From: Anaeromyxobacter diazotrophicus
Lineage (GTDB): Bacteria > Myxococcota > Myxococcia > Myxococcales > Anaeromyxobacteraceae
Reading direction: 5' to 3'
DNA: 64,000 nucleotides
Assembly (NCBI RefSeq): GCF_013340205.1
Contig: NZ_BJTG01000004.1
Span: forward strand, 1 to 64,000
Shown here: positions 19,932 through 36,643 of the stretch, one piece after another
Layout of the letters: each line of letters starts with the position of its first letter
Position numbering within the stretch: the first letter of the stretch is position 1
The notes under the pieces: generated by a model
Told to the model about the DNA's origin: nothing
The model's database searches: none
What the model saw: the letters and a program-made list of their open reading frames with translations, nothing else
Made by a program: the position numbers and the translations under genes

Positions 19932-21485
19932 CTACGGCGCCGCGACGCCGTACTTCTTGAGCTTCCCCTGCAGCGTGCTCGGCTTGAGCCCGAGCAGCGC
20001 CGCCGCACCCTGCGCGCCGTAGATGCGCCCCTCGCTGGCGGCCAGGGCGCGGGAGAGGAGGTCGCGCATCTCCTCGTCGAACCGGCGCGGCGGCCCCGCG
20101 GGCTGCTCCGCGCGGGGCGCGGCGTCGGCGGCGGCGGCGGGGGAGGGGAGCTCCGGCAGGCGCAGCTCCGGCCCCGGCGAGAGGATGAGCGCGCGCTGCA
20201 CGAAGTTCTCGAGCTCGCGCACGTTCCCTGGCCACGGGTAGCTGGCGAGCGCGCCCCAGGCCGCCTCGGGCACCAGCGGCGCCTTGCGGTGCATGAGGGC
20301 CGCCTCGCGGGTGAGGAAGTAGCTCGCCAGCGCCCGGATCTCCTCGCGCCGGTCGCGGAGCGGGGGCAGCTGGAGCGGGAAGACGGAGAGCCGGTAGTAG
20401 AGGTCCTGCCGGAAGGTGCCGCCGGCCACCATGGCCTCGAGGTCCCGGTTGGTGGCCGCCACCACCCGCACGTCCACCTTCAGGCTCTCGGTGCCGCCCA
20501 CGCGCTGGAGCTCGCGCTCCTGCAGCACGCGCAGGAGCCGTACCTGCACCGAGGGCGGCGCGTCGCCCACCTCGTCGAGGAAGATCGTCCCGCCCTCCGC
20601 CTGCTCGAACTTGCCCGGCCGGCGTCGTGCGGCGCCGGTGAAGGCGCCCTTCTCGTGCCCGAACAGCTCGCTCTCGATGAGGGTGTCGGGGAGCGCGCCC
20701 AGGTTCACCGTGACGAACGGAGCGTTGAACCGGGGCGAGAGGTCGTGGACCATCCGCGCCAGCCCCTCCTTGCCGGTCCCGGTCTCCCCCCGGACGAGGA
20801 CGGTGGTCTGCGAGGGCGCGACGAGCCGCACCCGCTCCAGCACCGCCTGCATGGCCGGGCTCTCCGCCACGTACCGCGCGTCGCGCTTGATCTGGCGGAG
20901 CTCGTCCTTGAGGAGCCGGTTCTCGCGGTCGAGCAGGCGGTTGAGGCGCTGCACCTCGTCCACCATGAGGCTGTTGTGGAGCGCGATCGCGACGAGGTGC
21001 GCCACCTGCCGCGCCACCTGGAAGCAGCAGTCGAGGAGCCCCTCCCGCGGCGGGTGGGCGATGTTGAGGACGCCCAGCGCCTGGTCCTCGAAGAGGAGGG
21101 GGAACGAGACGAGGGAGCCGTAGCCGAGCCCGGCGAGCCAGGTCTCCTCCCGGAAGCGCGGCCGATCGGGGTCGATGGGGTCCACCACCACCGGCTGCTT
21201 CGAGGCGAGCGCCTCGCCGGCGATCGACCCGGACAGCTCGAACCACTCGCCGAGCCGCGCCCCCGGGTGGAGCGGATCGGACACCAGCGCCACCTGGGCC
21301 CGGCCCGGGGCGTCCGGGAAGAGGCGGTGGATCGCGACGCGGGTCTGGCCGAACCGGTGGTTGAGCAGGCGCCCGGTGCGCTCGAGGACGGCCTGCAGGT
21401 CCACCGTCGAGAGGACCGCCTCGATGGCCTCCTCCACGATCTTCTCGTGGATGTCGTGCTGGGGAAGGACGGGCAAGACGGCCAT
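19932..21485 (-). CDS. NorR-like sigma54 activator (GAF-AAA+-HTH), probable NO sensor
   Basis: A 517-residue enhancer-binding protein. Residues about 30-175 form a GAF domain (FELSGSIAGEALASKQPVVV, SLVSFPLLFEDQALGVLNIA). A helical linker with heptads follows (about 176-200). The AAA+ domain has Walker A GETGTGKE (233-240) and the sigma54-contact loop GAFTGA (280-285). A C-terminal HTH (GAQGAAALLGLKPSTLQGKL) ends the protein. NorR has the same layout and senses NO through iron in its GAF domain; I cannot verify the iron ligands here. Context supports an NO role: divergent hemerythrin gene, nos operon and norB nearby, with matching 16-bp site arrays at both targets. Start ATG at 21483-21485 with AAGGAAG upstream. 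The segment VNLGALP replaces the common VNCAALP. Confidence 0.85.
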   Translation of the reverse strand: MAVLPVLPQHDIHEKIVEEAIEAVLSTVDLQAVLERTGRLLNHRFGQTRVAIHRLFPDAPGRAQVALVSDPLHPGARLGEWFELSGSIAGEALASKQPVVVDPIDPDRPRFREETWLAGLGYGSLVSFPLLFEDQALGVLNIAHPPREGLLDCCFQVARQVAHLVAIALHNSLMVDEVQRLNRLLDRENRLLKDELRQIKRDARYVAESPAMQAVLERVRLVAPSQTTVLVRGETGTGKEGLARMVHDLSPRFNAPFVTVNLGALPDTLIESELFGHEKGAFTGAARRRPGKFEQAEGGTIFLDEVGDAPPSVQVRLLRVLQERELQRVGGTESLKVDVRVVAATNRDLEAMVAGGTFRQDLYYRLSVFPLQLPPLRDRREEIRALASYFLTREAALMHRKAPLVPEAAWGALASYPWPGNVRELENFVQRALILSPGPELRLPELPSPAAAADAAPRAEQPAGPPRRFDEEMRDLLSRALAASEGRIYGAQGAAALLGLKPSTLQGKLKKYGVAAP

Positions 21486-21512
21486 GGCTTCCTTTCGACG
21501 CGTGCGCGCGGC

Positions 21513-21567
21513 TACCCAAATGCCGGTATTACCCATATCCCGGTGGACCTGCACCCGAATCGCGGTG
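21513..21567. promoter_or_regulatory. Array of three 16-bp activator sites upstream of the hemerythrin gene
   Basis: Three related sites: TACCCAAATGCCGGTA (21513-21528), TACCCATATCCCGGTG (21530-21545) and CACCCGAATCGCGGTG (21552-21567). Consensus is YACCCRWATSSCGGTR, with ACC at one end and GGT at the other. Start-to-start spacings are 17 and 22 bp. They lie between the divergent NorR-like gene and the sigma54 promoter at 21643, about 76 bp from it. The same site type in the same number and spacing occurs before norB (34181-34235). Proposed enhancer for the NorR-like protein and possibly for its own autoregulation. Confidence 0.75.
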
Positions 21568-21641
21568 GCGCCGCGCCCGCTTCGGGTGGGGCGCGTCGTG
21601 CAAGTGGCGGAATCACAGGCTGAAGTGGTGAGCGGGCCCCG

Positions 21642-21657
21642 TGGCACGCCCCTCGCT
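21642..21657 (+). promoter_or_regulatory. Sigma54 (-24/-12) promoter of the hemerythrin gene
   Basis: TGGCACGCCCCTCGCT carries a perfect TGGCACG -24 box. The -12 GC is exactly 10 bases after the GG (GG 21643-21644, GC 21655-21656); only the -12 TTGC is changed to TCGC. The start point would be near 21668, so the protein must start at the ATG at 21719 rather than further upstream. Confidence 0.75.
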
Positions 21658-21718: not shown

Positions 21719-22330
21719 ATGGACGCCATCGAGACCCTGATGACCGAGCACCGGCTGATCGAGCGCGCCATCGGCGCGCTGGCCGGCTTCGCCGACGAGG
21801 TCCGCCGGAAGGACGGCGACGACAAGGAGGAGCTGGCGCGGTTCGTCACCTTCCTGCGCGAGTTCGCCGACACGCACCACCACGGCAAGGAGGAGGACAT
21901 CCTCTTCGCCGCGATGGTCGAGGCGGGGTTCCCCCGCCACGGCGGCCCGGTGGCCGTGATGCTCATGGAGCACGAGGCGGGGCGCGCCCACATCCGCGCG
22001 CTCGCGGAGCTCGCCGCCCAGCAGGCGCCCTGGAGCCCGGACGATCGCCAGCGCCTGGCCGACGCCGCCCACGGGTACGGCAACCTCCTGCGGGCCCACA
22101 TCCACAAGGAGGACGCCGTCCTCTACCCGATGGCGGAGCAGCGCCTGCCGCAGGAGAGCCTGGAGCGGGTCTCGGCCGAGTGCGCCGCGCACGACGCCGC
22201 CGGGGCCGACTCCGGCCGCCAGGACGAGCTGCACGCCCTCGCCCAGGCGCTCCTCGCCCGGCACGCTCCCCTCGACCGGGACGAGAGCTCGGCCAGGCCG
22301 CCGCCTCGCTCCCTCCAGGGCTGCTGCTGA
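21719..22330 (+). CDS. Hemerythrin-domain protein, probable NO/redox-stress protein
   Basis: A 203-residue cytoplasmic protein with a four-helix hemerythrin domain that should hold a di-iron centre. Candidate ligands are His11 (TEHRLIE), the HHHGKEED cluster at about 53-60, His85 (MLMEHEAGR) and the HIHKEDAVLYP segment at about 127-137. After about residue 160 the tail is variable and ends SLQGCC. Such proteins act in oxygen, NO or iron handling; Ric/YtfE-type members repair Fe-S centres after nitrosative stress. The sigma54 promoter and three-site array just upstream point to control by the NorR-like regulator. The ATG at 21719 has GAAGGA at a good distance; an upstream GTG lies inside the promoter and is rejected. 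Confidence 0.9.
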   Translation: MDAIETLMTEHRLIERAIGALAGFADEVRRKDGDDKEELARFVTFLREFADTHHHGKEEDILFAAMVEAGFPRHGGPVAVMLMEHEAGRAHIRALAELAAQQAPWSPDDRQRLADAAHGYGNLLRAHIHKEDAVLYPMAEQRLPQESLERVSAECAAHDAAGADSGRQDELHALAQALLARHAPLDRDESSARPPPRSLQGCC

Positions 22331-22418: not shown

Positions 22419-24368
22419 ATGCCGATCAAGGCGCGCCTCCCGGAGCTCGGCGACTGGAAGGCCCAGGTGAAGTGCCAGATCGGCTGTCCGGTGACCACGG
22501 ACGCCGGCCGGTACGTGCAGCTCATCGCCGAGGGCCGGGACGAGGAGGCTTACCTCGTCGCGCGCGCGCCGAATCCGTTCGCGTCCGTGTGCGGCCGCGT
22601 CTGCGCCGCCCCCTGCGAGGACGCCTGCCGGCGCGGCTCCGTCGACGCGCCCATCGCGATCCGCGCGCTGAAGCGGACCGTCACCGAGAAGTTCGGCGTC
22701 GAGTCGATGCGGCCCGACACCCAGGACCGGCTGCTCGACGCCGGCTTCGGCGAGGGCAACCGGTACGTGGACCACCTCCCGGTGACGCCGTTCGGGCGCG
22801 CCCACGCCGCCGGTCGCAAGGTGGCGGTGGTGGGCGCCGGGCCGGCGGGCCTCTCGGCGGCCCACGACCTGGCCCTCCTCGGCTACGCCGTGACCGTCCT
22901 CGAGGCCTCCGAGGAGCCGGGCGGCATGATGCGCTTCGGCATCCCCGAGTACCGGCTCCCGCGCAGCCTCATCGCGGCGGAGATCGACAAGATCCGCGGG
23001 CTGGGCGTCACGCTGGAGCTCTCCTCGCCCCTGACCGCCGAGCGCGGGCTGGCGGCGCTCCGCGCCGAGGGGTTCGAGGCCGTCTTCCTCACCGTCGGCG
23101 TGCAGCGCGGCCGCGACCTGCAGATCCCCGGCGTCGAGCTCGACGGCGTGGTCAAGGCCGTCGACTACCTCCTCAACGCGAACCGCGGCTACCGGATGGA
23201 CCTCGGGCGGCGCGTGGTGATCATCGGCGGCGGGTTCGTCGCCTTCGACGCGGCCCGCACCGCGCTGCGGGTCGGCCGCGAGGACGAGCCTGCGCTCTCG
23301 CAGGCGGTGGGCGTGGGCGGCGAGCGCATGAAGGAGGCGTTCGACTCGGCGCGCGAGGCGCTCCGGGGCGGCGCGGCGGAGGTGACCATCGCCTCGCTGG
23401 AGTCGTTCGAGGAGATGCCGGTCCTCCGCACCACGCAGGGGCACGAGGAGTTCGAGGAGGCCCGGCGCGAGGGCGTGCGCTTCCAGCCCCGCCGCGGCCC
23501 CCGGCGCCTCCTGGGCGACGGGCGGCTGCGCGCGGTCGAGCTGCGGCGGGTCACCTCGGTCTTCGACGCCGCCGGCCGGTTCGCGCCGCAGTACGACGAC
23601 GCCGATCTCCTGACGGTGGAGGCGGACGCCTGCGTGCTCGCCATCGGCCAGCGCGCGGATCTGTCCTTCCTCCAGCCCGGGGACGGGGTCGCGCTGACGC
23701 CGGGGGGCACCATCCAGGTGGACCGGGAGACGCTCGCCACCACCGCGCCCGGCGTCTACGCCGGCGGCGACGTGGCGTTCGGGCCGCGCAACCTCATCGA
23801 GGCGGTCGCGAACGGCAAGCGGGCGGCGCGCTCCATCCACCGCTACCTGGCGCGCGACGCGGCGCGGCTGGAGGCGGTCGTCGACGTCGAGAAGATCCCG
23901 ACCCGCAGCTACCGGATGATCGCCGGGTTCGAGCTCCTCGATCGCGTGCCGCCGGACACCTTGCCGCTCGGGCGCCGCACCGGCATCGCGGAGGTGGAGA
24001 CGGGGTACGGCGAGGTGGAGGCGCGCCGGCAGGCCGCCCGCTGCCTCGTCTGCCACGTCCAGACCATCTACGACCCGGAGAAGTGCGTCCTCTGCAACCG
24101 GTGCGTCGACGTCTGCCCCGAGTACTGCCTGGCGCTGGTGCCGCTCGAGGAGCTCGACCTGCCCGAGGCCGAGCGGGCCGCCCTCGTCGCCGCCGCGGGG
24201 GCGAACGGGCTGCCGCTGTCGGCGATGGTGAAGGACGACACCGCCTGCATCCGTTGCGGCCTGTGCGCCATCCGCTGCCCGACCGACGCGATGACGATGG
24301 AGCGCTTCACGATCAGCGAGCGGTGGGCCCCGGCGCAGCCGGCCGCCCCCGGCGAGGAGAAGCGATGA
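22419..24368 (+). CDS. GltD-like FAD/NAD(P) oxidoreductase with iron-sulfur domains, head of the nos operon
   Basis: A 649-residue cytoplasmic flavoprotein. The N-terminal cysteine region is of GltD type (CQIGCPV, then CGRVCAAPCEDACRRG, about 22-80). An FAD loop (VVGAGPAGLSAAHDLA) lies near 135-150 and a second dinucleotide loop (VVIIGGGFVAFDAARTA) near 267-283. Two 4Fe-4S cluster motifs sit near the end (CVLCNRCVDVCP and CIRCGLCAIRCP). It could take electrons from NAD(P)H and pass them to the quinone pool or to the Rieske/cytochrome b proteins encoded next. The stop overlaps the Rieske start (ATGA). Its exact partner and direction of electron flow are inferred. Confidence 0.88.
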   Translation: MPIKARLPELGDWKAQVKCQIGCPVTTDAGRYVQLIAEGRDEEAYLVARAPNPFASVCGRVCAAPCEDACRRGSVDAPIAIRALKRTVTEKFGVESMRPDTQDRLLDAGFGEGNRYVDHLPVTPFGRAHAAGRKVAVVGAGPAGLSAAHDLALLGYAVTVLEASEEPGGMMRFGIPEYRLPRSLIAAEIDKIRGLGVTLELSSPLTAERGLAALRAEGFEAVFLTVGVQRGRDLQIPGVELDGVVKAVDYLLNANRGYRMDLGRRVVIIGGGFVAFDAARTALRVGREDEPALSQAVGVGGERMKEAFDSAREALRGGAAEVTIASLESFEEMPVLRTTQGHEEFEEARREGVRFQPRRGPRRLLGDGRLRAVELRRVTSVFDAAGRFAPQYDDADLLTVEADACVLAIGQRADLSFLQPGDGVALTPGGTIQVDRETLATTAPGVYAGGDVAFGPRNLIEAVANGKRAARSIHRYLARDAARLEAVVDVEKIPTRSYRMIAGFELLDRVPPDTLPLGRRTGIAEVETGYGEVEARRQAARCLVCHVQTIYDPEKCVLCNRCVDVCPEYCLALVPLEELDLPEAERAALVAAAGANGLPLSAMVKDDTACIRCGLCAIRCPTDAMTMERFTISERWAPAQPAAPGEEKR

Positions 24369-24871
24369 GCGACGGCTCGGATCGCAGGGAGTTCCTCAAG
24401 CGGCTCGGGATCGGGGCCGGCCTGGCCGCCGTCGCGTGCCAGGGCGCCGCCTCGCTGCGCTCGCTCGTGCCGAACGTCTCGTACGACGCGCCCACCACCG
24501 TCAAGCTGGGCCCCCCGGCCGAGTTCCCCGACGGGATGAAGTTCCTCCCCGAGCAGCGCCTGTTCGTGTTCCGGGAGAACCGGATCTTCCACGCCATCTC
24601 GGCGGTGTGCACGCACCTCGGCTGCACCGTCCGCGCCGAGGCGCTGGCGCACTACGAGGTGCGGAAGATCGGGGGGTCGGAGGTGAAGCTCACCCACCGC
24701 TTCCTCTGCCCGTGCCACGGCTCGCGCTACGAGGGCGACGGCACGAACGTGGCCGGCCCCGCGCCGAAGCCGCTCGCCTGGTACGAGCTGTCGATCGCGC
24801 CGGACGACGGGCAGCTGGTGGTGGACCTCGCGAAGCCGGTGGATCACGCGTTCCGGCTCACGATCGCGTAG
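24365..24871 (+). CDS. Rieske iron-sulfur protein of the nos operon
   Basis: A 168-residue exported 2Fe-2S protein. The twin-arginine signal DRREFLKRLGIGAGLAAVA is at residues 6-24. Rieske box I is CTHLGC (Cys82, His84, Cys87) and box II is CPCHGS (Cys115, Cys117, His118). It ends soon after the usual Rieske C-terminal strands. With the following cytochrome b and pentaheme c it forms a bc-like quinol oxidising module that can feed NosZ in the periplasm. Confidence 0.95.
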   Translation: MSDGSDRREFLKRLGIGAGLAAVACQGAASLRSLVPNVSYDAPTTVKLGPPAEFPDGMKFLPEQRLFVFRENRIFHAISAVCTHLGCTVRAEALAHYEVRKIGGSEVKLTHRFLCPCHGSRYEGDGTNVAGPAPKPLAWYELSIAPDDGQLVVDLAKPVDHAFRLTIA

Positions 24872-24880
24872 GAGCGCGCC

Positions 24881-26236
24881 ATGGCCATCTCCCCCGATCA
24901 ACCCGAGCGGCAGCCCACCAGCGCTCCCGGCGTCCACCCGCGCCCGGGGTGGAGCGTCGCGCCGGCCTCGGATCGCGAGGCGGGCGACGCGGTGGTGGCG
25001 AACTTCCTGCTGCACTGGTTCCCGGCGCGGGCGCTGAAGGACTCGCTCGCCTGGCGCTACTCGCTGTGGCTCGGGACCATCAGCACCGCGCTGCTCGCGC
25101 TGCTCGTCGCGTCGGGGATGCCGCTCCTCTTCCTCCACGTGCCGTCGGTGGAGCGCGCCTACGGCTCGGTGAAGGACATCGAGAACGTCGTCACCTTCGG
25201 CGCGTGGCTGAGGTCGGTCCACCGGCTCTCCGCCCACCTCATGGTGGCGCTCGTCTTCCTGCACCTCGCCCGGGTGTTCCTCACCGGGGCCTACAAGAAC
25301 GGGGTGGGCCGCGGGCAGCACCGCGAGTGGAACTGGGTCATCGGCGTCGCGATGTTCCTCGTGACGCTCTTCCTCAGCTTCACCGGCTACCTGCTGCCCT
25401 GGGACCAGCTCGCCTACTGGGCCGTCACCGTGGGCACCAACATCGCCTCGGCGGTCCCGCTGGTGGGCGACCAGGTGCGGGAGCTCATGCTGGGCGGCCG
25501 GACCATCGACCAGCCGACGCTGACCCGGTTCGAGATGCTGCACGTCATCGTGCTGCCCGCCGTGCTCGGCGTCCTCTTCGCGTATCACATGTGGCGCATC
25601 CGGAAGGACGGCGGGCTCGCCACCGCCGATCGCGCCGCGCTCCTCCCGGCGCGCGCGCCGGTGCCCGAGGCGGCCGGCCGGACGAAGACGTACACGCTGC
25701 TCGGGATCGCGCGCGGGCAGGGGCCGCTCATCCGGAGCGCGTCGCTGGAGCGCCCGGAGACGACGGTGAACGCGGTGCCGGACCTCACCCGGCGCATCGG
25801 CATCGTGATGCTGGGGACGGTGGCGCTCATCTCCATCCTGGCGGTGTTCGTCCACTCGCCGCTCGAGGAGCCGGCGAACCCGCTCGTCACGCCCAACCCG
25901 GCCAAGGCGCCCTGGTACTTCCTCTGGCTGCAGGAGATCGTGACCGACACCACGATCCGGATCGGCTCGTTCACGGTCAACGGCGCCTTCGTCGGCGGCG
26001 TGCTCCTGCCCGGGTTGCTCGTCGCGCTGATGGTCGTCTGGCCGTGGCTCGACCGGAGCACGGCGGCGGCCGCCGGTCGCTGGTTCCCGCGCAGCCGGCG
26101 CACGCAGAACGTCGTCTTCCTGGTGCTCGTCGCGGTCGTGATCCTCCTCACTCTCATCGGCACCTTCGTCCGCGGGCCCTTCTGGCGCATGTACTGGCCG
26201 TGGCAGGGCTGGCCCGAGATGCCGACCCGGTTCTGA
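24881..26236 (+). CDS. Cytochrome b of the nos-operon bc-like complex
   Basis: A 451-residue membrane protein. The b-type heme histidines are in VHRLSAHLMVALVFLHLARV and EMLHVIVLPAVLGVLFAYHM. The quinol-site motif appears as NPAKAPWYFLWLQE (APWY in place of PEWY) in the C-terminal half. About eight hydrophobic segments are visible. Thus the b6 and subunit-IV parts are joined in one chain. It lies 9 bp after the Rieske gene and is followed after 2 bp by the pentaheme cytochrome c gene. Confidence 0.93.
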   Translation: MAISPDQPERQPTSAPGVHPRPGWSVAPASDREAGDAVVANFLLHWFPARALKDSLAWRYSLWLGTISTALLALLVASGMPLLFLHVPSVERAYGSVKDIENVVTFGAWLRSVHRLSAHLMVALVFLHLARVFLTGAYKNGVGRGQHREWNWVIGVAMFLVTLFLSFTGYLLPWDQLAYWAVTVGTNIASAVPLVGDQVRELMLGGRTIDQPTLTRFEMLHVIVLPAVLGVLFAYHMWRIRKDGGLATADRAALLPARAPVPEAAGRTKTYTLLGIARGQGPLIRSASLERPETTVNAVPDLTRRIGIVMLGTVALISILAVFVHSPLEEPANPLVTPNPAKAPWYFLWLQEIVTDTTIRIGSFTVNGAFVGGVLLPGLLVALMVVWPWLDRSTAAAAGRWFPRSRRTQNVVFLVLVAVVILLTLIGTFVRGPFWRMYWPWQGWPEMPTRF

Positions 26237-26238
26237 CC

Positions 26239-27507
26239 ATGGAACGGCGCACGCTCTTCCCGCAGGCCCCGCGCGACCGGCTCATCCTGGGGATCGTCGG
26301 CGTCCTCCTCGTCGTCTCGACGGTGCTGTTCATCTGGAGCGACCGGGCGAAGGACTGGCGCTGGTACCAGGCCGAGTTCCGCCGGCGCGTCACCGAGAAG
26401 TACGGCGCGGAGAAGGCCGCCACGGTGCCGTCCGGCCTGAAGCAGCTCTGGATCGCCGACCTGCGCCGGGCCGATCGCTGCATCACCTGCCACCAGGCGG
26501 TGGCGTGGAAGGGGTTCGAGACGGCCGAGGAGCCGTTCCGCACCCACCCGCCGGAGCTCCTGCGGTCCCACCCGGTCGAGCGCTTCGGCTGCACCGCCTG
26601 CCACGGCGGCGAGGGCTACGCCATCGACGCCGAGGACGCGCACGGGCCGACGCCGCACTGGGAGGAGCCGGTCCTCGGCACCACGCTGGGCGAGGCCTAC
26701 TCGATCCAGGGCGACCAGGGCGCGCTCATCCAGATGAACTGCAACGTCTGCCACCGCTACGACCGCGAGACGAAGGGCGCCTCGGCCATCAACCTCGCGA
26801 AGCAGCTGGTGCGCGAGAAGGGGTGCCGGGCCTGCCACGTCGTGAACGGGCGCGGCGGGCAGATCGGGCCCGACCTCACCTACGTCGGCGACAAGGCGCC
26901 CGAGCAGTACGACTACTCGCGGCTCCTCGGCCAGAAGACCGCCTTCGCCTGGCACGTCGCGCACGTGAAGGAGCCGAAGGCGCTCGTGCCCGACACCGTC
27001 ATGCCGACCTTCGGCTTCTCCACCCAGGAGGCGCAGGCGCTGGCGATGCTGGTCATGTCGTGGCGCCGCGCCACGGTGCCGGCCGCCTACGTCTCGGGCG
27101 CGCCCCGGGGCGAGCCGCAGACGCCCCGGGAGGTCGCCGAGGAGGAGCGCATGAAGACCGGTCCCGGCGCCTGGTTCGTCAAGACCGGCTGCTACATCTG
27201 CCACAACATCTCCTCGCTCGGAGTGAAGAGCCCGGCGCAGATCGGCCCCGACCTCTCGGTGGCGGTCGAGGACGTCCAGAAGCGCTTCGGGCGCACGCTG
27301 GACGACTTCCTGCGCGAGCCGACCGGGACCATGTCGGTGGTGCTGTCCCGCCAGATCGTCCTCACCCCCGAGGAGAAGGCCGTCGCGGTGCAGAAGCTCC
27401 GCGAGGCGTTCGCCGAGTTCCAGAAGCAGAAGGCGGAGGGCGAGGGGGCCGGGGCGAAGCTGCGCAAGCCCGGCAACGAGCCTTCCAACGAAAGGAAGAC
27501 GCCATGA
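26239..27507 (+). CDS. Membrane-anchored pentaheme cytochrome c of the nos operon
   Basis: A 422-residue protein with one N-terminal membrane helix (LILGIVGVLLVVSTVLFIW, about 14-32) and five CXXCH heme sites: CITCH, CTACH, CNVCH, CRACH and CYICH. The last part (KTGCYICHNISSLGVKSPAQ) resembles a class I mono-heme domain. It probably links the Rieske/cytochrome b proteins to the copper site of NosZ. Its stop overlaps the nosZ start (ATGA). Confidence 0.93.
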   Translation: MERRTLFPQAPRDRLILGIVGVLLVVSTVLFIWSDRAKDWRWYQAEFRRRVTEKYGAEKAATVPSGLKQLWIADLRRADRCITCHQAVAWKGFETAEEPFRTHPPELLRSHPVERFGCTACHGGEGYAIDAEDAHGPTPHWEEPVLGTTLGEAYSIQGDQGALIQMNCNVCHRYDRETKGASAINLAKQLVREKGCRACHVVNGRGGQIGPDLTYVGDKAPEQYDYSRLLGQKTAFAWHVAHVKEPKALVPDTVMPTFGFSTQEAQALAMLVMSWRRATVPAAYVSGAPRGEPQTPREVAEEERMKTGPGAWFVKTGCYICHNISSLGVKSPAQIGPDLSVAVEDVQKRFGRTLDDFLREPTGTMSVVLSRQIVLTPEEKAVAVQKLREAFAEFQKQKAEGEGAGAKLRKPGNEPSNERKTP

Positions 27508-29360
27508 CGAACCGGATCGGTGGCTCCCTCGCCCTCGCCGCCGCCGCGGCGCTGCTCGCGGCCGGCTGCGCCCCCTCGAAGCCGAAGGGCGCCCAGCGCC
27601 AGCAGCGCGGCGCGTCCGACCTCGCCGTCGCGGCGGAGAAGACCTACGTCGCGCCAGGGGATCTCGACGAGTACTACATGTTCTCGTCGGGCGGGCACTC
27701 CGGGCAGGTCTTCGTCTACGGCATCCCGTCGATGCGCCACATCACGACCATCCCGGTCTTCACCCCCTACCCGGGCGTCGGGTACGGCTTCGACGACGAC
27801 ACGAAGAAGATGCTGGGCGAGTACACCTGGGGTGATGCCCACCACCCGGCGCTCTCGGAGACGAACGGCGACTACGACGGCCGCTGGCTCTTCATCAACG
27901 AGATGAACGGCCGGATCGCGCGCATCGACCTGCGCGACTTCAAGACGAAGCAGATCCTGGGGCCCATCGCGAACATCTCGGGGAACCACGGCTCGTCCTT
28001 CGTCACGCCCAACACCGAGTACGCGATGATGTCCACGCGCTTCTCGGCCCCCATCCCGAACGGCACCTACGCGCCGATCGAGAAGTACGCCACCGACTAC
28101 AAGGGCGTCATCGCCGGCATCAAGATCGACCCGAAGTCGGGCGAGATGTCGCTCGGCTGGGAGGTGGTGACCCCGCCCTTCGACTGGGACCTGGGCGACG
28201 CGGGGAAGGGCCCCTCCGACGGCTGGATGTTCTTCACCTGCTACAACTCGGAGCGCGGCACCGGCAAGCTCGAGGTGACCGCGTCGCAGCGCGATCGCGA
28301 CTACATCGGCGCGGTGAACTGGAAGCTCGCCGAGAAGGCGATCCAGGAGGGCAAGGGGAAGCTCATCGGCGGGGTGAAGGTGCTCGACCCGCGCGACGTG
28401 CCCGGCCTCATGTACCTCATGCCCTGCGGCAAGTCCCCCCACGGCGTCGACGTGTCTCCCGACGGGAAGTGGATCGTCGGCTCCGGGAAGCTGCAGGGCG
28501 TGACGACCGTCTTCAACTTCGAGAAGGTCCAGACCGCCATCCGGAACAAGGAGTTCACCGGGGACGAGGACGGCATCCCGGTGCTGCGCTACGAGGCGAT
28601 CAAGGACGCCGAGGTGCCGGTCGGGCTCGGGCCGCTCCACACCCAGTTCGGCGGCGACGGCTACGCCTACACCTCGCTCTTCGTCGACAGCGCCATCGCC
28701 AAGTGGAAGCTCGGCACCTGGGAGGTCATCGACAAGATCCCCGTCTCCTACTCGGTCGGCCACCTGGCGGTGGCCGGCGGCGACAGCGCCCACCCCTGGG
28801 GCAAGTACCTCGTCTCGCTCAACAAGCTCTCCCACGGCCGGCACCTGTCGGTCGGCCCCTCTCAGCCGGAGAGCTCGCAGCTCATCGACATCAGCGGCGA
28901 GAAGATGAAGCTGCTCTACGACGCCTTCACCGAGCCCGAGCCGCACTACGCCCAGATCATCAAGGCGGACAAGGTCCACCCCATCGAGATCTATCCGAAG
29001 GAGGAGAACCACCACCCGCTCGCCATCTGGGACGTGAAGGAGGCCGGCCCGACGCGGCAGGGCGACAAGGTGGTGGTGAAGACGGTGGTGGTGCGCTCCA
29101 CCATCACGCCCACGAGCGTGGAGGTGAACCAGGGCGACACCGTGACCTTCGCCATCACCAACATCGAGCAGACCACCGACGAGCTGCACGGGTTCGGCCT
29201 GCTCGGCTACAACAAGAACATCGTCATCGACCCGGGCGAGACGAAGACGGTCACCATCAAGGCCGACAAGCCGGGCGTCTTCCCCTACTACTGCACGAAC
29301 TTCTGCTCGGCGCTCCACCAGGAGATGCAGGGCTACCTCATCGTGAAGCCGAGGAAGTGA
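27504..29360 (+). CDS. nosZ: Nitrous-oxide reductase NosZ, clade II
   Basis: Terminal reductase converting N2O to N2 in the periplasm. The 618 residues begin with a Sec/lipoprotein-type signal (LAAGC, Cys22) rather than a twin-arginine signal, a hallmark of clade II enzymes. CuZ-ligand region GDAHHPAL (His113, His114) and further histidines in CGKSPHGVDVSPDG and EPEPHYAQI are present. The C-terminal cupredoxin domain has the CuA motif CTNFCSALHQEM (Cys597, Cys601, His605, Met608). Start ATG at 27504 with AAAGGAAG upstream. The following nosB and nosDFLY genes confirm the assignment. Confidence 0.98.
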   Translation: MTNRIGGSLALAAAAALLAAGCAPSKPKGAQRQQRGASDLAVAAEKTYVAPGDLDEYYMFSSGGHSGQVFVYGIPSMRHITTIPVFTPYPGVGYGFDDDTKKMLGEYTWGDAHHPALSETNGDYDGRWLFINEMNGRIARIDLRDFKTKQILGPIANISGNHGSSFVTPNTEYAMMSTRFSAPIPNGTYAPIEKYATDYKGVIAGIKIDPKSGEMSLGWEVVTPPFDWDLGDAGKGPSDGWMFFTCYNSERGTGKLEVTASQRDRDYIGAVNWKLAEKAIQEGKGKLIGGVKVLDPRDVPGLMYLMPCGKSPHGVDVSPDGKWIVGSGKLQGVTTVFNFEKVQTAIRNKEFTGDEDGIPVLRYEAIKDAEVPVGLGPLHTQFGGDGYAYTSLFVDSAIAKWKLGTWEVIDKIPVSYSVGHLAVAGGDSAHPWGKYLVSLNKLSHGRHLSVGPSQPESSQLIDISGEKMKLLYDAFTEPEPHYAQIIKADKVHPIEIYPKEENHHPLAIWDVKEAGPTRQGDKVVVKTVVVRSTITPTSVEVNQGDTVTFAITNIEQTTDELHGFGLLGYNKNIVIDPGETKTVTIKADKPGVFPYYCTNFCSALHQEMQGYLIVKPRK

Positions 29361-29367
29361 GGGAACC

Positions 29368-30030
29368 GTGAGCGGGATCTTCGAGCGGGAGGGCCGGGTC
29401 CTCCAGTCGACGGCGGGGTGGGCGCCGCGCGCGCTCCTCGTCGCGGCGGCCGTGCTCGTGGCCGTGGCCGGCACCACCTCGCTCTGGGACATGACGATGT
29501 TCGCGCCCCAGTACGGGGATGGCCTCCGGCTGCACATCCACAGCTCCCGGCTGGAGGGCGGCAACCGCGGCCAGGACCTGAAGGAGATCAACCTCCTCAA
29601 CCACTACATCGGGATGCACGAGCTCTCGCAGGAGAGCTTCACCGAGTTCCAGTGGATGCCGTTCATGATGGGCGCGCTGGCGCTGCTCTTCCTGCGCGCC
29701 GCCTTCTTCGGCACCGTCGGGCACCTCGTGGACGTGGCGGTGCTCTTCCTCTACTGCAGCCTGTTCTCGCTCTGGTCGTTCGCCCACAAGCTGTGGGCGT
29801 ACGGGCACGAGCTCGCGCCGACCGCGCCGGTCAAGGTGCCCGGCTTCATGCCGCCCATGTTCGGGCGCTCGCAGCTCGCGAACTTCGAGGTCTACTCGTA
29901 CCCCGGGCCGGGCAGCTACGCCTTCGCCGCGGTGGCGCTCGCGCTCGCGGCGGCGCTCTTCCTCGGGCTGCGCGGCGCGCGCACCGCCTCCGTCGCTCAC
30001 CCGCGGGGAGCCTCGGCCACGGGGTCCTGA
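29368..30030 (+). CDS. nosB: NosB-type membrane protein
   Basis: A 220-residue membrane protein placed directly after nosZ, as NosB is in clade II nos operons. About four hydrophobic segments: 23-42, 92-110, 114-138 and a C-terminal one near 188-205. Conserved-looking motifs are WDMTMFAPQYGDGLRLHIHS and WAYGHELAPTAPV. NosB is needed for N2O respiration in Wolinella, but its chemistry is unknown. GTG start at 29368 with GAGGGAA upstream. Confidence 0.85.
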   Translation: MSGIFEREGRVLQSTAGWAPRALLVAAAVLVAVAGTTSLWDMTMFAPQYGDGLRLHIHSSRLEGGNRGQDLKEINLLNHYIGMHELSQESFTEFQWMPFMMGALALLFLRAAFFGTVGHLVDVAVLFLYCSLFSLWSFAHKLWAYGHELAPTAPVKVPGFMPPMFGRSQLANFEVYSYPGPGSYAFAAVALALAAALFLGLRGARTASVAHPRGASATGS

Positions 30031-30033
30031 GCC

Positions 30034-31416
30034 ATGGCGTCCGGGGCCGCGCTCCTCGCGCTCGTCGCCGCGGCCGGTGGGGTCGGCGACATGGCGAGCA
30101 TCCAGCCGGGCGGGCTCGAGGGGCGGCCCCCGCCGTCCGAGGCCTCGCCGCTGCAGGCGCTCGTGGACGCGGCGGCGCAGGGCGCGACCGTGACCATCCC
30201 GGCCGGCACCTACCGGGGCGATCTGATCGTCGATCGTCCGCTGCGCCTCACCGGCGTCGGCCGGCCCCGGCTGGTGGGGTCGGGCCAGGGCAGCGTGGTG
30301 CGCATCCGCGCCCCGGACGTCACGGTGGAGGGCCTCGACGTGGACGGGGTGGGCGGGGGCGACCTGGGGCGCGACAGCTCGGGCGTCCACGTGGCCGCGC
30401 CGCGCGCCACCGTCCGCGACGTCCGGATCGAGCGCTCGCTGTTCGGCGTCTACCTGCGCGAGGCGCCGGGCGCCGTGGTCGAGCGCTGCGTCGTCCACGG
30501 CATCCCGGGGAAGGACGCCGGCGAGAAGGGCTCGGGCATCCACGTCTGGAACACCGAAGGGTTCACGCTCACCGGCAACGACCTCTCCGACGTCCGGGAC
30601 GGGCTCTACATCCAGTCCTCCTCGCACGGGCTCATCCGGGGCAACGCCGCGCGCGACCTCCGCTACGGCATCCACTACATGTACTCGGACGACAACGTGT
30701 TCGAGGACAACGTGTTCGAGCGCTCGGCGGCGGGCGGCGTGCTCATGCACTCGCGCCGCATCGTCTTCCGCCGCAACCAGTTCCTCCACAACCGCGGGTA
30801 CGCCTCGGTGGGCCTGCTCTTCAAGTCCTGCGACGACTCGCTGGCGGAGGACAACCTCATCGCCGACAACGCCCGCGGCGTCTTCCTCGAGGGCTCCTAC
30901 CGCGACGTGCTGCGCCGCAACGTCGTGGCCCGGTCGGACGTCGCGCTCGTCCTGTTCGACTCGTGCGGCGACGTGCGCGTCGAGGGGAACGCGTTCCTGG
31001 GCAACCTCGCGCCGCTGGAGCTCGTCGGGCGGCGCACCGACACCCGCCTCGACGGCAACTACTGGTCCGACCACGACGCCCCGGACCTCGACGGCGACGG
31101 GGTGAGCGACGCCCCCTTCGTCATCTCGAGCCTCTTCGACCACCTGCGCGGGAACGTCCTCGCCGCCGACCTGGTGGCGCAGAGCCCGGCGGCGGCCGCG
31201 CTGGGCGCGGCCGAGCGCGCCTTCCCGGTGCTGCGGCCGATCGAGGCGGTGGATCACCGGCCCCTGGCCCGCCGCCCGGCGCTGCCGGACGTCCCGCGCC
31301 CGGCGCGGCCCGGCCGCGGCGCCGATCCCGCCGGCCTGGCGCTGGCGCTGGGGACGCTCGCCGCGGGGGTGGCGGTCCTCGCGGGCGCGGGCCGCGGCGC
31401 GGGGGGGCGGGCGTGA
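30034..31416 (+). CDS. nosD: NosD, periplasmic copper-site maturation protein
   Basis: A 460-residue protein of the right-handed beta-helix (CASH) family required for copper-site (CuZ) maturation of NosZ together with the NosFY transporter. It has a short signal-like N-terminus and repeated parallel-helix turns (IPAGTYRGDLIVDRPLRLTG, DGLYIQSSSHGLIRGN, GIHYMYSDDNVFEDN). A C-terminal hydrophobic helix (about 434-452) may anchor it. Its stop overlaps the nosF GTG. Confidence 0.93.
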   Translation: MASGAALLALVAAAGGVGDMASIQPGGLEGRPPPSEASPLQALVDAAAQGATVTIPAGTYRGDLIVDRPLRLTGVGRPRLVGSGQGSVVRIRAPDVTVEGLDVDGVGGGDLGRDSSGVHVAAPRATVRDVRIERSLFGVYLREAPGAVVERCVVHGIPGKDAGEKGSGIHVWNTEGFTLTGNDLSDVRDGLYIQSSSHGLIRGNAARDLRYGIHYMYSDDNVFEDNVFERSAAGGVLMHSRRIVFRRNQFLHNRGYASVGLLFKSCDDSLAEDNLIADNARGVFLEGSYRDVLRRNVVARSDVALVLFDSCGDVRVEGNAFLGNLAPLELVGRRTDTRLDGNYWSDHDAPDLDGDGVSDAPFVISSLFDHLRGNVLAADLVAQSPAAAALGAAERAFPVLRPIEAVDHRPLARRPALPDVPRPARPGRGADPAGLALALGTLAAGVAVLAGAGRGAGGRA

Positions 31417-32312
31417 TCCGGTTCGAGCGCGTGTCGAAGCGGTACGGGCGGCACGTGGCGCTCTCCGGCCTCTCGCTCGAGGTCCGGCGCGGCGAGGTGG
31501 TGGCGCTGCTCGGCCCCAACGGCTCGGGCAAGACCACCACGCTCAAGGCGGCGGCGGGCCTGGTCCACCCCAGCGAGGGGACGGTGATGCTCGGGGAGCC
31601 GCCGCGGCCCGCGGCCGAGCCCGACGCGCGGCGGACGCTCTCCTACCTGCCGCAGAAGGTCGCCTTCCCGGAGGCGCTCACCGGGCGCGAGGTGGTCGAG
31701 TTCTACCGGCGGCTGCGCGGCCTCGGCGCGGCGCGGACCGACGAGGCGCTGCACGTGGCCGCGCTGAACGGCGCCGGCGCTCGCCAGGTGGGCACCTACT
31801 CCGGCGGGATGGTGCAGCGGCTCGGGCTCGCCGTGGCGGCGCTGCCGGACGCGCCGGTGCTGCTGCTCGACGAGCCGACGTCGTCCCTCGACACGGCGGG
31901 GCTGGGAGCGGTGTACGCGCTGGCGGTGCGGGCGCGGCGCGAGGGGCGGGCGGTCCTGTTCACCTCGCACCAGCCCGCGGACGTGGAGCGGCTGGCCGAT
32001 CGGGTGGCGGTCCTGGTGGGCGGCCGCCTCGTGGCGCTGCTCGGGCGGGGGGAGCTGGCCGAGCGGCTCGCCGCGCGCGGCGTGCTGCGCGCGCGCGTCG
32101 AGCGGGTCCCGCCCGGCCTCGGCGAGCGGCTGGCCTCGCTCGCGCCGGGCGCGGCGGTCGAGGGAGACCAGGTGGTGGTGCCGGGCGACGCGCGGACGCG
32201 CGCGGCGGCCCTGCAGCTGCTGGCCGAGGCGGGCGCCCGCGTCCGCCAGCTCGCGGCGGAGGAGGGGCGCCTGGATCTCCTCTACCAGGAGCTCGCCGGA
32301 GGGGACGCGTGA
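31413..32312 (+). CDS. nosF: NosF, ABC transporter ATP-binding subunit
   Basis: A 299-residue ATPase that works with NosY to support NosD in copper-centre assembly. It has Walker A GPNGSGKTT (about 35-43), ABC signature YSGGMVQRL, Walker B VLLLDEPTSSLD and the switch histidine in FTSHQ. A C-terminal extension of about 85 residues follows, as in other NosF proteins. GTG start at 31413 overlaps the nosD stop by 4 bp. Confidence 0.94.
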   Translation: MIRFERVSKRYGRHVALSGLSLEVRRGEVVALLGPNGSGKTTTLKAAAGLVHPSEGTVMLGEPPRPAAEPDARRTLSYLPQKVAFPEALTGREVVEFYRRLRGLGAARTDEALHVAALNGAGARQVGTYSGGMVQRLGLAVAALPDAPVLLLDEPTSSLDTAGLGAVYALAVRARREGRAVLFTSHQPADVERLADRVAVLVGGRLVALLGRGELAERLAARGVLRARVERVPPGLGERLASLAPGAAVEGDQVVVPGDARTRAAALQLLAEAGARVRQLAAEEGRLDLLYQELAGGDA

Positions 32313-32761
32313 CCGCCCCGCGCACCGCGGTCGCGCTGCTGGTGCTGGCCGCCTGCTCCCGCGGCCCCGCGGGGCCGGCCCCCCTGGACACGCGCGCGGA
32401 GACCTGCGCGTCCTGCAGGATGGCCGTCTCGGACGCGCGCTTCGCCGCGCAGCTCGACGCCCCCTCGGAGGAGCCGCGCTTCTTCGACGACGTCGGCTGC
32501 CTGCGCGACTGGCTCGCCGCCCACCCGCGCCTGCCGCGCGGGGCGGTGGCGTGGGTGGCGGACCACCGCACGAAGGCGTGGGCGCGCGCCGCGCGCGCCG
32601 CCTACGCCGAGGCGCCCGCCGTCGAGACCCCGATGGCCTCCCACCTCCTCGCCTTCGCCGACGCGGCGTCGCGGGCCGCCGATCCCGCGGCCGCCGGCGC
32701 GCGCCCGCTCGGACCGAGCGAGGTCTTCGGACCCCACGGTCCGCCGGACGGCGCTCCGTGA
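32309..32761 (+). CDS. nosL: NosL copper lipoprotein
   Basis: A 150-residue outer- or inner-membrane lipoprotein (lipobox VLAACS) of the NosL family, a copper(I) carrier for NosZ. The copper-binding motif is CASCRMAVSD, followed by the conserved FFDDVGCLRDWL. GTG start at 32309 overlaps the nosF stop. The last 20 residues are proline- and glycine-rich. Confidence 0.93.
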   Translation: MTAPRTAVALLVLAACSRGPAGPAPLDTRAETCASCRMAVSDARFAAQLDAPSEEPRFFDDVGCLRDWLAAHPRLPRGAVAWVADHRTKAWARAARAAYAEAPAVETPMASHLLAFADAASRAADPAAAGARPLGPSEVFGPHGPPDGAP

Positions 32762-33597
32762 AGCGCGCCACGCCGCTCCTGCTGGTCGCGCGCGAGGAGC
32801 TGCTCCTCGCCGTCCGCTCGCGCTGGACGCTCATCTTCGCGGGCGTCTTCGCGGTCCTCGCCACCGGCGTGGCCGCCGCGGGCTACGTCCTGTCCGGCGG
32901 CAGCGGGCTGCAGGACCTGGCGCGGACGAGCGCCTCGCTGGTGCAGCTCGTCGTGCTGGTGGTGCCGCTCGCGGCGCTGCTCATGGGGGTGCTCTCCATC
33001 GCGCCGGAGCGGAGCACCTCCGAGCTGCTGTTCGCGCAGCCGGTCTCGCGGCGGGCCATCCTGCTCGGCCGCGCGGCCGGCCTGTTCGCCGCCCTCGCCG
33101 CCGCCGAGGCGGTCGGGTTCGGCGCCGCCGGGCTGCTCGTCTTCGCCCGCGCCGGCGACGAGGGGGCGGCCGGGTTCGCGCAGCTCGTCGGGTTCGCGCT
33201 GCTCCTCACGGCCATCTTCGTCTCGCTCGCGGCGCTCATCGCCTCCACGGCCACCGGGCGGCGCCGCGGGCGGGCGCTGGCGGTGGCGCTCGTGGTCTGG
33301 TTCGCGGCCGTCATCCTGGTCGACCTGGCGGCGCTGGGCCTCGCGTCGCTGCTGCCGTCAGGCCCCGCCTCGCGGGTGCTGGTCGTGGCCGTGCTCGCGA
33401 ACCCCGCCGCCGCGGTGCGCACCGGCGCGCTCCTCGGCATCGAGGGCACGGCGGCCTTCGGCGCGGGGTCGCTGGCGCTGCTGCGCGCGACGCACGGGCC
33501 GCTCGGCGCCGCGCTCGCCATCGCCGCGTCGAGCGCGCTGTGGGTGTGTGTCCCGCTCGCGTGGGCCGACCGCCGCCTCCAGCGTGTCGACCTATAG
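32758..33597 (+). CDS. nosY: NosY, ABC-2 type permease
   Basis: A 279-residue membrane protein with six predicted helices, partner of NosF. The N-terminal motif is LLLVAREELLLAVRSRWTLI. A family-typical loop is SIAPERSTSELLFAQPVSRR. GTG start at 32758 overlaps the nosL stop by 4 bp. It is the last gene of the nos operon; the next 760 bp hold no gene. Confidence 0.93.
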   Translation: MKRATPLLLVAREELLLAVRSRWTLIFAGVFAVLATGVAAAGYVLSGGSGLQDLARTSASLVQLVVLVVPLAALLMGVLSIAPERSTSELLFAQPVSRRAILLGRAAGLFAALAAAEAVGFGAAGLLVFARAGDEGAAGFAQLVGFALLLTAIFVSLAALIASTATGRRRGRALAVALVVWFAAVILVDLAALGLASLLPSGPASRVLVVAVLANPAAAVRTGALLGIEGTAAFGAGSLALLRATHGPLGAALAIAASSALWVCVPLAWADRRLQRVDL

Positions 33598-34357: not shown

Positions 34358-36643
34358 GTGAACAACCAGCGTTCCAAGGCGATCCTCCTGTTCGTCCTGG
34401 TGGCCGCCTTCAGCGTGCTGATCTTCGGCGGCGCCAAGATCAACCAGCACAAGCCGCCCATGCCGGCGAAGATCGTCGACGCGCAGGGCCAGGTCGTCTT
34501 CACCTACGACGACCTCATGGCCGGCCAGCGCTTCTACCTGGCCCACGGCGGTCAGCACATCGGCTCGATCTGGGGCCACGGCGCCTACCTCGCGGCCGAC
34601 TGGTCGGCCGACGCGCTCCACCGCACCGGCCTCGTCGCCGCCGGCCTCGCGCACGGGCTCGCGGCGGACGCCGCCCGCGGCTTCCAGCAGGCGGACCTCG
34701 ACGCGCTCGACGCCGGCGAGAAGGGCCGGGTCCAGGCGCTCGTCGCGCAGGAGCTCCGGCAGAACCGGTACGACGCCGCGAGCGACACGCTCGTCCTCTC
34801 CACCGGGCAGGCCGCGGCCGTCCCGTCGCTGGTCGCGTACTACACGCAGCTCTGGCAGGGCGGCTCCGACGCGATGTCGATCCCGCCCGGCGTCGTGAAG
34901 ACCGCCGAGGAGGGCCGGCAGCTCACCGCCTTCTTCTGGTGGACCGCCTGGGCCGCCGGCACGAACCGCCCCGGCGAGACCTACACCTACACCGCGAACT
35001 GGCCGTATGACCCGCTCGTCGGCAACGGCCCGCTCCCGTCGGCGCTGGTGTGGTCGATCGCGTCGGTGCTCCTGCTCATCGCCGGCACCGGGCTCGCCAT
35101 CTACCTCTACATGAAGGGCCGCGAGGGCGACGACGAGAAGCCCGAGTTCGCGAAGTTCTCCGAGCCGAACCCCACCCCCAGCCAGCGCGCCACGCTGCCC
35201 TACTTCCTCGTCGCGCTCGTCCTCTTCATCCTGCAGGCCGCGCTCGGCTCGATGACCGGCCACTACGCCGTCGAGGGCAACAAGGTCTTCGGCGTGGACC
35301 TCACCCACCTCCTGCCGTACGCCGCCAGCCGGACCTGGCACCTGCAGCTCGCCGTCTTCTGGATCGCCACCTGCTGGCTCGCGACCGGCCTCGTCATCGG
35401 CCCGGCGGTGGGCGGCAAGGAGCCGAAGGGCCAGAAGGCGCTCGTGCTGACCCTGCTCGGCGCGCTGGTGGTGGTCGTCCTGGGCGCGCTCTTCGGCACC
35501 TGGGCCGGCATCCAGGGCAAGCTCGGGAACGACTACCTCTTCGGCACGCAGGGCTACGAGTACATCGAGCTCGGCCGCGTCTGGCAGGTGGCGCTCATCG
35601 CCGGGATGCTGCTCTGGCTCGCGCTCGTCTACCGCGCCATCCAGCCGGCCCTGCGGCAGGAGAAGGACGCGGGCGGCCTCACCCACCTGCTCCTCTACGC
35701 CGCGGTCTCCATCCCGCTCTTCTACGCGGTCGGCCTGTTCTACACGCCGGGCAGCCACATCTCGAACGCCGACTACTGGCGCTGGTGGGTGGTGCACCTC
35801 TGGGTGGAGAACTTCTTCGAGGTGTTCGCCACCGTCGCGCTCGCCTTCGTGCTCTCCCGCGTCGGCGCCGTGAAGCAGGCCTCCGCCACCCGCGCCACCT
35901 ACTTCTCGATCATCCTCTACCTGGGCTCGGGCATCATCGGGACCTTCCACCACCTCTACTTCACCGGCTCGCCGCTCTTCATCACCGCGCTCGGCGCGAG
36001 CTTCTCGGCGCTGGAGGTGGTGCCGCTCACGCTGCTCGGCTTCGAGGTCTACCAGACCCTCAAGCTCGCGAAGCTGGGCGGGGACGCCGCGCCCTACAAG
36101 TGGCCGCTCTACTTCTTCACCGCGGTCGCCTTCTGGAACATGGTCGGCGCGGGCGTGTTCGGGTTCCTCATCAACCCGCCCATCGTCCTCTACTACGCGC
36201 AGGGCCTCAACACGACGCCCATCCACTCGCACGGCGCGCTCTTCGGCGTGTACGGCTTCCTCGCCATCGCGCTCATGCTCTTCTCGGTGCGCAACATCGT
36301 GAAGCAGGCCGCCTGGTCCGACACGCTCCTGAAGTACGCGTTCTGGGGCCTCAACCTCGGGCTGGCCGGCATGATGGTGATGTCGCTCATCCCGGCGGGC
36401 TTCTACCAGTTCGCCATCGCCATCAAGCACGGCATCTGGTACGCGCGCAGCCCGGCGGTCACCGGCAGCGACTTCATCCACACCGTGACCTGGCTGCGCG
36501 TCATCCCGGACGTGGTCTTCGACCTGGGCGCCTTCGCCCTGGTCGGCTTCCTCGGGCGGGCCATCGCGGTGGACGTTAGGCTCCGCCGTGCCGAGCGGAA
36601 CGCGACCCCGAGCCAGAGCGCGCCCGGCCGCCGCGCCGCCTAG
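34358..36643 (+). CDS. norB: Quinol-dependent nitric-oxide reductase (qNor)
   Basis: A 761-residue membrane enzyme that reduces 2 NO to N2O with electrons from quinol. The N-terminal extension of about 220 residues (one helix, then a periplasmic cytochrome-c-like fold without a CXXCH) marks the qNor type. Twelve or so further helices follow. Signatures are WRWWVVHLWVENFFEVFA, GTFHHLYFTGSP and NTTPIHSHGALFGVYG, which carry the heme b, heme b3 and FeB histidines. The start is the GTG at 34358 with AAAGGA about 8 bases upstream; the sigma54 promoter at 34277 excludes longer readings. Its product N2O is the substrate of the nos operon just upstream. Confidence 0.95.
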   Translation: MNNQRSKAILLFVLVAAFSVLIFGGAKINQHKPPMPAKIVDAQGQVVFTYDDLMAGQRFYLAHGGQHIGSIWGHGAYLAADWSADALHRTGLVAAGLAHGLAADAARGFQQADLDALDAGEKGRVQALVAQELRQNRYDAASDTLVLSTGQAAAVPSLVAYYTQLWQGGSDAMSIPPGVVKTAEEGRQLTAFFWWTAWAAGTNRPGETYTYTANWPYDPLVGNGPLPSALVWSIASVLLLIAGTGLAIYLYMKGREGDDEKPEFAKFSEPNPTPSQRATLPYFLVALVLFILQAALGSMTGHYAVEGNKVFGVDLTHLLPYAASRTWHLQLAVFWIATCWLATGLVIGPAVGGKEPKGQKALVLTLLGALVVVVLGALFGTWAGIQGKLGNDYLFGTQGYEYIELGRVWQVALIAGMLLWLALVYRAIQPALRQEKDAGGLTHLLLYAAVSIPLFYAVGLFYTPGSHISNADYWRWWVVHLWVENFFEVFATVALAFVLSRVGAVKQASATRATYFSIILYLGSGIIGTFHHLYFTGSPLFITALGASFSALEVVPLTLLGFEVYQTLKLAKLGGDAAPYKWPLYFFTAVAFWNMVGAGVFGFLINPPIVLYYAQGLNTTPIHSHGALFGVYGFLAIALMLFSVRNIVKQAAWSDTLLKYAFWGLNLGLAGMMVMSLIPAGFYQFAIAIKHGIWYARSPAVTGSDFIHTVTWLRVIPDVVFDLGAFALVGFLGRAIAVDVRLRRAERNATPSQSAPGRRAA

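Follow-up and report, generated by a model that had tools for sequence, protein, structure and literature searches.

How does NosZ, the reductase for the greenhouse gas nitrous oxide (N2O) in the soil bacterium Anaeromyxobacter diazotrophicus, receive its electrons? The question is raised by a 64,000-nucleotide stretch of its genome, hereafter the window (contig NZ_BJTG01000004.1, assembly GCF_013340205.1, positions 1 to 64,000), in which four redox genes occupy positions 22419 to 27507, directly ahead of nosZ. They encode an Nfn/GltD-type flavin adenine dinucleotide (FAD)/iron-sulfur (Fe-S) oxidoreductase of 649 amino acids (22419 to 24368, + strand; Pfam Fer4_20, Pyr_redox_2, and two Fer4 domains), a Rieske [2Fe-2S] protein with a twin-arginine translocation (Tat)–type N terminus (RRxF; 24365 to 24871, +; Pfam Rieske), a cytochrome b that fuses a b6-like N-terminal half to a subunit IV–like C-terminal half (24881 to 26236, +; Pfam Cytochrome_B N and C domains on one chain), and a pentaheme cytochrome c anchored by an N-terminal transmembrane helix (26239 to 27507, +; Cytochrom_C, five CxxCH motifs). 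The nosZ gene itself (27504 to 29360, +) is of the clade II, Sec-type form (TIGR04246, 914 bits against a cut-off of 625). Gene order and spacing are as the initial annotation had described, with junctions of under 10 bp throughout: a 4-bp overlap (FAD/Rieske), a 9-bp gap (Rieske/b), a 2-bp gap (b/c), and a 4-bp overlap (c/nosZ). We show that these four genes are a module dedicated to NosZ across phyla. N2O respiration may thus be wired directly to the cell's reduced nicotinamide adenine dinucleotide (NADH) through the operon's own four-part electron-supply complex.

The module is widespread. A search across 84,980 species genomes returned 80 loci; after removal of duplicates and addition of the window and eight relatives, 46 loci in several phyla carried the FAD-Rieske-b-c genes with nosZ. 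Among the 43 complete nos loci, all 43 have the five genes collinear, on one strand, and in the order FAD-Rieske-b-c-nosZ, with exactly five CxxCH motifs in the c subunit. Carriers are metagenome-assembled genomes (MAGs) or isolates, isolated Anaeromyxobacter strains included, and are labeled Myxococcota, Acidobacteriota, Actinomycetota, Ignavibacteriota, Bacteroidota, Chlorobiota, Kryptonia, and Planctomycetota. Note that the lone Actinomycetota MAG falls within an acidobacterial clade and may represent a binning error. An assembly artefact or an accident of one genome can be rejected as an explanation, because the module recurs in many independent assemblies.

Presence of the flavoprotein tracks presence of nosZ. 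Within the Anaeromyxobacteraceae, all nine genomes with nosZ hold a flavoprotein ortholog directly upstream, together with the Rieske, b, and c genes (76 to 79% identity in the eight relatives), and a close ortholog was found in none of the 15 genomes of the family that lack nosZ. The pattern repeats among 396 Acidobacteriota genomes. Here, 26 encode a nos-type flavoprotein (at least 56% identity) and all 26 have nosZ (Fisher's test, P = 1.7 × 10−30); in 23 carriers the two genes share a contig and are no more than about 6 kb apart. In the other three (G821, G848, and G612) the two genes are on separate contigs, through either contig breaks or genuine separation. A further 15 Acidobacteriota genomes have nosZ above the cut-off without a nos-type flavoprotein; the flavoprotein module therefore marks a subset of clade II. 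The dedication to NosZ that the initial annotation had postulated is thus borne out.

Orthologs of the flavoprotein are rarely found elsewhere. Among those at least 54% identical and on long-enough contigs, 46 lie inside nos operons and 2 outside (L089 and L068), so that the refuting condition set by the initial annotation, occurrence for the most part outside such operons, does not hold for orthologs. All nos-linked flavoproteins fall into one clade of 56 sequences (Shimodaira-Hasegawa–like approximate likelihood ratio test support of 93, from a quick tree search), composed of these 46, 9 that are cut by a contig end, and 1 without nosZ (L089). Flavoproteins of nosZ-free Planctomycetota cassettes branch outside this clade. 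Furthermore, the four subunits diverge in concert (r = 0.91 to 0.95 among them and 0.74 to 0.84 against NosZ, with a largest permuted value of 0.23), and the flavoprotein follows the Rieske, b, and c subunits particularly closely (r = 0.94 to 0.95).

Every part of the module has a homolog among the Rieske/cytochrome b complexes of the anammox bacterium Kuenenia stuttgartiensis: flavoprotein, Rieske protein, cytochrome b, subunit IV, and multiheme c. We found the Kuenenia genome through an exact match to Kuste4569 and compared the loci Kuste4569-4574 and Kustd1480-1485, using coordinates that reproduce the published residue numbers (His43 and His62; PMC12954380). The window flavoprotein scores 350 bits against Kustd1483 and 296 bits against Kuste4570, whereas its cytochrome c matches Kustd1485 clearly (105 bits) and Kuste4573 weakly (20 bits). 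The best Protein Data Bank matches of the Rieske protein are 9rk4, which is Kuste4569 (E = 2.8 × 10−18), and 9rk3, which is Kustd1480 (2.8 × 10−17), and both outrank all Rieske proteins of b6f and bc1 complexes. Ser120 is present in all 46 nos-linked Rieske proteins and Tyr122 in 36 of the 46, a pair that is associated with high potential. Kuste4569 has this Ser/Tyr pair, and the Kuenenia Rieske potentials are +303 mV (Kuste4569) and +335 mV (Hauser et al. 2025, PMC12954380).

In the cytochrome b, the four bis-His heme ligands (H114, H128, H221, and H236) are all conserved, as is the Qo region, in which the motif reads APWY rather than PEWY; in this motif, the residue at position two follows quinone type and potential (PMC9162462). 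All 83 sequences compared have His45, which aligns to Kuste4571 His43 and Kustd1481 His62, the ligands of an extra heme b that was proposed at the dimer interface from AlphaFold3 models (PMC12954380). By this alignment, H45 would probably serve as the ligand of an equivalent interface heme. A basic Arg-Lys pair follows the last b-heme ligand, as in Kuenenia, and the position of the heme-cN Cys is occupied by W63 in the window and by Trp or Tyr in all 46 nos-linked proteins. Our structure models are of single chains; that of the cytochrome b (predicted local distance difference test score, pLDDT, of 80) matches the cytochrome b of bc1 complexes. It is the sole Rieske-type cytochrome b that a genome search returned. 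The adjacent pentaheme c had no Pfam or NCBIfam match to the cytochrome c1 or f families, which indicates that the canonical bc1/b6f acceptor is absent from this position. Treating the heme-cN Cys as a variable rather than a defining trait, we classify the module as a NosZ-dedicated variant of the Kuenenia-type Rieske/cytochrome b complex.

The flavoprotein is built to connect a nicotinamide nucleotide with Fe-S clusters. It is predicted to be soluble, with neither a signal nor a transmembrane helix. The initial annotation had recognized its GltD-like FAD/Fe-S type correctly and had counted two [4Fe-4S] clusters, which is too few: 17 of its 18 Cys are invariant across the 46 nos-linked sequences and, together with the additional N-terminal Fer4_20 domain, would be enough for about four. 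The same annotation had left the nucleotide as NAD(P)H. The NAD site, GGG-x-V-A-x-D, is accompanied by Glu328, a position held by Glu in all 46 nos-linked sequences, and the nucleotide motif that reads YRRTREEMP in Kuenenia reads SLESFEEMP in the window, with Arg-Arg replaced by Leu-Glu; this motif suggests a preference for NADH over NADPH. The structure model (pLDDT of 86) fits NfnABC/StnABC across residues 9 to 631 (against 9bov, NfnABC: Z = 33.8, 2.6 Å over 449 residues; VIA-align), and a relationship to NfnABC has also been reported for Kuste4570 (PMC12954380). We rejected a stray glutamate synthase subunit as the identity of this protein, given the lack of an adjacent glutamate synthase gene, its extra C-terminal clusters, and its co-divergence with the Rieske, b, and c subunits.

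In which direction would electrons flow? The flavoprotein has no signal or membrane helix, the Rieske protein is of Tat type, and the c subunit is anchored, so the flavoprotein would lie on the opposite face of the membrane from the Rieske protein, the c subunit, and NosZ, meeting them only via cytochrome b. For Kuenenia, a path through Fe-S clusters to FAD and NAD(P) has been proposed, in support of the earlier idea that quinol bifurcation makes NAD(P)H; the proposed direction is from quinol to NAD(P)+, and NAD(P) reduction has not been demonstrated there (PMC12954380). The reading that we favor for the window, although it stops just short of an even bet, is that the four proteins form a NosZ-dedicated complex of this type, with a cytoplasmic NADH-linked flavoprotein, in which menaquinol is bifurcated to NosZ and NAD+. 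Menaquinol would give up its electrons on the periplasmic (P) side, one of them passing through the Rieske protein and the pentaheme c to NosZ and N2O. The other would pass from heme bL to heme bH, probably over the H45 interface heme, and on into the flavoprotein, through its Fe-S clusters and FAD, to NAD+. The large drop to N2O would thereby drive the uphill transfer from menaquinol to NADH, and the NADH could then be reoxidized by complex I with proton pumping. Assembly into one complex, electron exchange between cytochrome b and the flavoprotein, and the direction toward NADH are what we infer here.

The energetics would allow such a split. Textbook potentials are −74 mV for menaquinone and −320 mV for NAD. 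With these values, we calculate that the conversion of two menaquinols into one NADH and two electrons on the Rieske protein is favorable above a Rieske potential of about +172 mV and that, at +303 mV, it would yield about 25 kJ/mol. Beyond it, NosZ and N2O would make the Rieske branch steeply downhill. Several considerations weigh against menaquinol bifurcation. The carriers are mostly heterotrophs, which make NADH anyway, and menaquinone is assumed as the quinone on the basis of what is generally known about the family. The heme cN of the Kuenenia models is absent from the nos-linked cytochromes b, Phe replaces Tyr122 in 10 of the 46 nos-linked Rieske proteins, and the preference for NADH stands on a single motif. 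The case as a whole is drawn from genes, sequence comparison, and single-chain models.

The same anatomy also permits the reverse traffic, with NADH passing electrons through the flavoprotein Fe-S clusters to the cytoplasmic face of cytochrome b, where quinone would be reduced, thus forming an NADH:quinone:NosZ conduit. We regard this as unlikely, though the most credible of the alternatives. Glu328 points to NADH, the catabolic nucleotide, and heterotrophic carriers would have ample NADH. However, a complex I is already present in the genome (two strong NuoH matches and one weaker relative), so simple NADH oxidation by the module would be wasteful, and the conduit gives no reason for the flavoprotein to be attached to a Rieske complex instead of working as a simple NADH dehydrogenase. 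Hauser et al. give energetic arguments against such flow in Kuenenia (PMC12954380). The initial annotation had run electrons from NAD(P)H through a bc-like complex to NosZ; its link between nucleotide and Fe-S clusters stands, while its direction becomes one of two readings, given the opposite proposal for Kuenenia and the presence of complex I.

Less probable again, and in our view improbable, is an ordinary Q-cycle in which the Rieske, b, and c5 proteins act as a menaquinol:NosZ oxidoreductase and the flavoprotein is merely co-transcribed, for example for redox maintenance of NosZ or under nitric oxide (NO) stress. Conservation of all four b-heme ligands and of the Qo region fits such a cycle, and two routes to NosZ have been proposed, of which a Rieske/cytochrome bc complex is one (PMC11539149). 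A bystander flavoprotein is nevertheless hard to reconcile with its co-divergence with the other three subunits, with its company with Rieske, b, and c genes in almost every related cassette, nosZ-free ones included, and with the reported comigration of the homologous Kuenenia subunits (PMC12954380). Finally, the closest fold and sequence matches of the flavoprotein are bifurcating transhydrogenases, which could mean that the FAD itself splits an electron pair, in the manner of NfnABC/StnABC, with cytochrome b/quinone as one recipient and a soluble ferredoxin or a second nucleotide as the other. We think this very unlikely, because the operon encodes no second nucleotide- or ferredoxin-binding subunit and the Rieske protein already allows bifurcation at the quinone.

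The module is not an invention of nos operons. Below about 54% flavoprotein identity, the FAD-Rieske-b-c cassette is found without nosZ, including in two relatives of A. diazotrophicus. In one relative (G002), a cassette of FAD, Rieske, b, subunit IV, and multiheme c genes (L036:8943-16261) lies immediately upstream of cbb3-type oxidase genes; the module therefore seems exchangeable between terminal reductases. The same genome has a second cassette (L035). Pfam searches of the genes around distant cassettes found porins, cupredoxins, small cytochromes, and a cytochrome c assembly protein, and no clear terminal reductase other than this cbb3 oxidase. A Neomarinimicrobiota cassette (L120:5548-8831), also without nosZ, follows genes for a CuA/COX2-like cupredoxin, a diheme c, and a Fer4_5 protein. 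The two nos-type flavoproteins outside nos operons differ in setting. The Chloracidobacterium locus (L089:8992-17529) lacks nosZ and has a shortened c subunit, followed by a cytochrome c assembly protein gene; decay or a switch of partner is possible. At L068 the flavoprotein gene is followed by an unrelated gene.

Downstream of nosZ, the operon continues on the same strand with a 220–amino acid membrane protein of roughly four helices at the nosB position of clade II (29368 to 30030), which is kept in nos loci of other phyla, and then with nosD (30034 to 31416; Pfam/NCBIfam searches), nosF for the ABC ATPase (31413 to 32312; family search and operon position), nosL (32309 to 32761; PF05573), and a nosY-like ABC permease gene (32758 to 33597), placed by operon position, its family search giving no match. 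The absence of nosR, nosG/nosH, and nosC claimed at the outset holds for the operon's gene list and, for the FMN-binding domain of NosR (PF04205), for the whole genome, which had zero matches; the NosR of clade I is thus absent. Yet a stand-alone polyferredoxin of 369 amino acids, resembling NapH and the NosR C terminus, is encoded on another contig (C10, L123:1171-2280), far from the nos operon, and could be an alternative quinol route. A GAF/sigma-54 activator gene resembling the NifA/NorR type (19932 to 21647, −) diverges from the operon, and a hemerythrin gene (HHE/RIC-like; 21719 to 22330, +) lies just upstream of the flavoprotein gene; the two point to control by NO or redox state. A search for sigma-54 promoter-like motifs ahead of the flavoprotein gene and of the hemerythrin gene gave no strict −24/−12 match. 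After the nos genes, a 761–amino acid multi-helix protein (34358 to 36643, +) resembles quinol-dependent nitric oxide reductase and had no NCBIfam match at E = 10−10.

These findings are of interest beyond one genome. The proposal that some Rieske/cytochrome b complexes make NAD(P)H is based on anammox bacteria. These are difficult organisms to manipulate, and one of the two Kuenenia complexes has no known high-potential acceptor. Because the nos module has the same architecture with a known acceptor (N2O, via NosZ) and occurs in isolated Anaeromyxobacter strains, the bifurcation hypothesis becomes directly testable. We propose, more tentatively than the mechanism itself, that one operon encodes an N2O-powered NADH generator, a menaquinol-bifurcating complex with N2O as its high-potential branch, in at least Myxococcota, Acidobacteriota, Bacteroidota/Ignavibacteriota, and Planctomycetota. 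The matter bears on energy conservation from N2O, and hence on growth yield, in widespread soil N2O sinks (Acidobacteriota and Anaeromyxobacter).

The gene set itself is not new. Published drawings of clade II nos clusters already include, by their figure legends, genes of the types Fe-S, Rieske (S), Cyb, and Cyc (PMC11237620, PMC13122619), which match the window and are very probably the same genes. The papers searched do not name the Fe-S gene as a NAD-linked Nfn-type flavoprotein or link it to Kuenenia, and our search of one paper library returned no prior connection of the nosZ module to bifurcation or to the NAD(P)H-generating complexes of anammox. The Wolinella-type clade II module (NosG/C1/C2/H plus Rieske/cytochrome bc; Hein et al. 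2017, cited in PMC11409646 and PMC11539149) likewise delivers quinol electrons to a Sec-type NosZ, involves a Rieske/bc complex, and has a protein at the nosB position; unlike it, the window operon has no NosG, NosH, or NosC and encodes its own Rieske complex, with a flavoprotein. ExtP, ExtQ, and ExtS of the selenite/tellurite operon are the best named NCBIfam families for the two halves of the cytochrome b (225 and 78.5 bits, below the curated cut-offs of 290 and 150), yet these are separate chains and have no nosZ. NfnABC, StnABC, NfnAB, and GltD resemble the flavoprotein in fold and in the arrangement of cofactors but are soluble, without cytochrome b, and those aligned have the NADPH-type Arg-Arg that the window lacks. 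Compared with Kuenenia, the window module fuses b and subunit IV, has five hemes in its c subunit and the gene order FAD-Rieske-b-c, carries an NADH-type SLE in place of the NADPH-type YRR, replaces the heme-cN Cys of both Kuenenia complexes with Trp or Tyr, and serves NosZ rather than an HAO-like protein. It nonetheless shares with Kuenenia the proposed interface-heme His, the APWY motif, and the two basic residues that follow the last b-heme ligand, and just as the gene for a terminal multiheme enzyme comes next in Kuste4569-4574, so nosZ comes next here.

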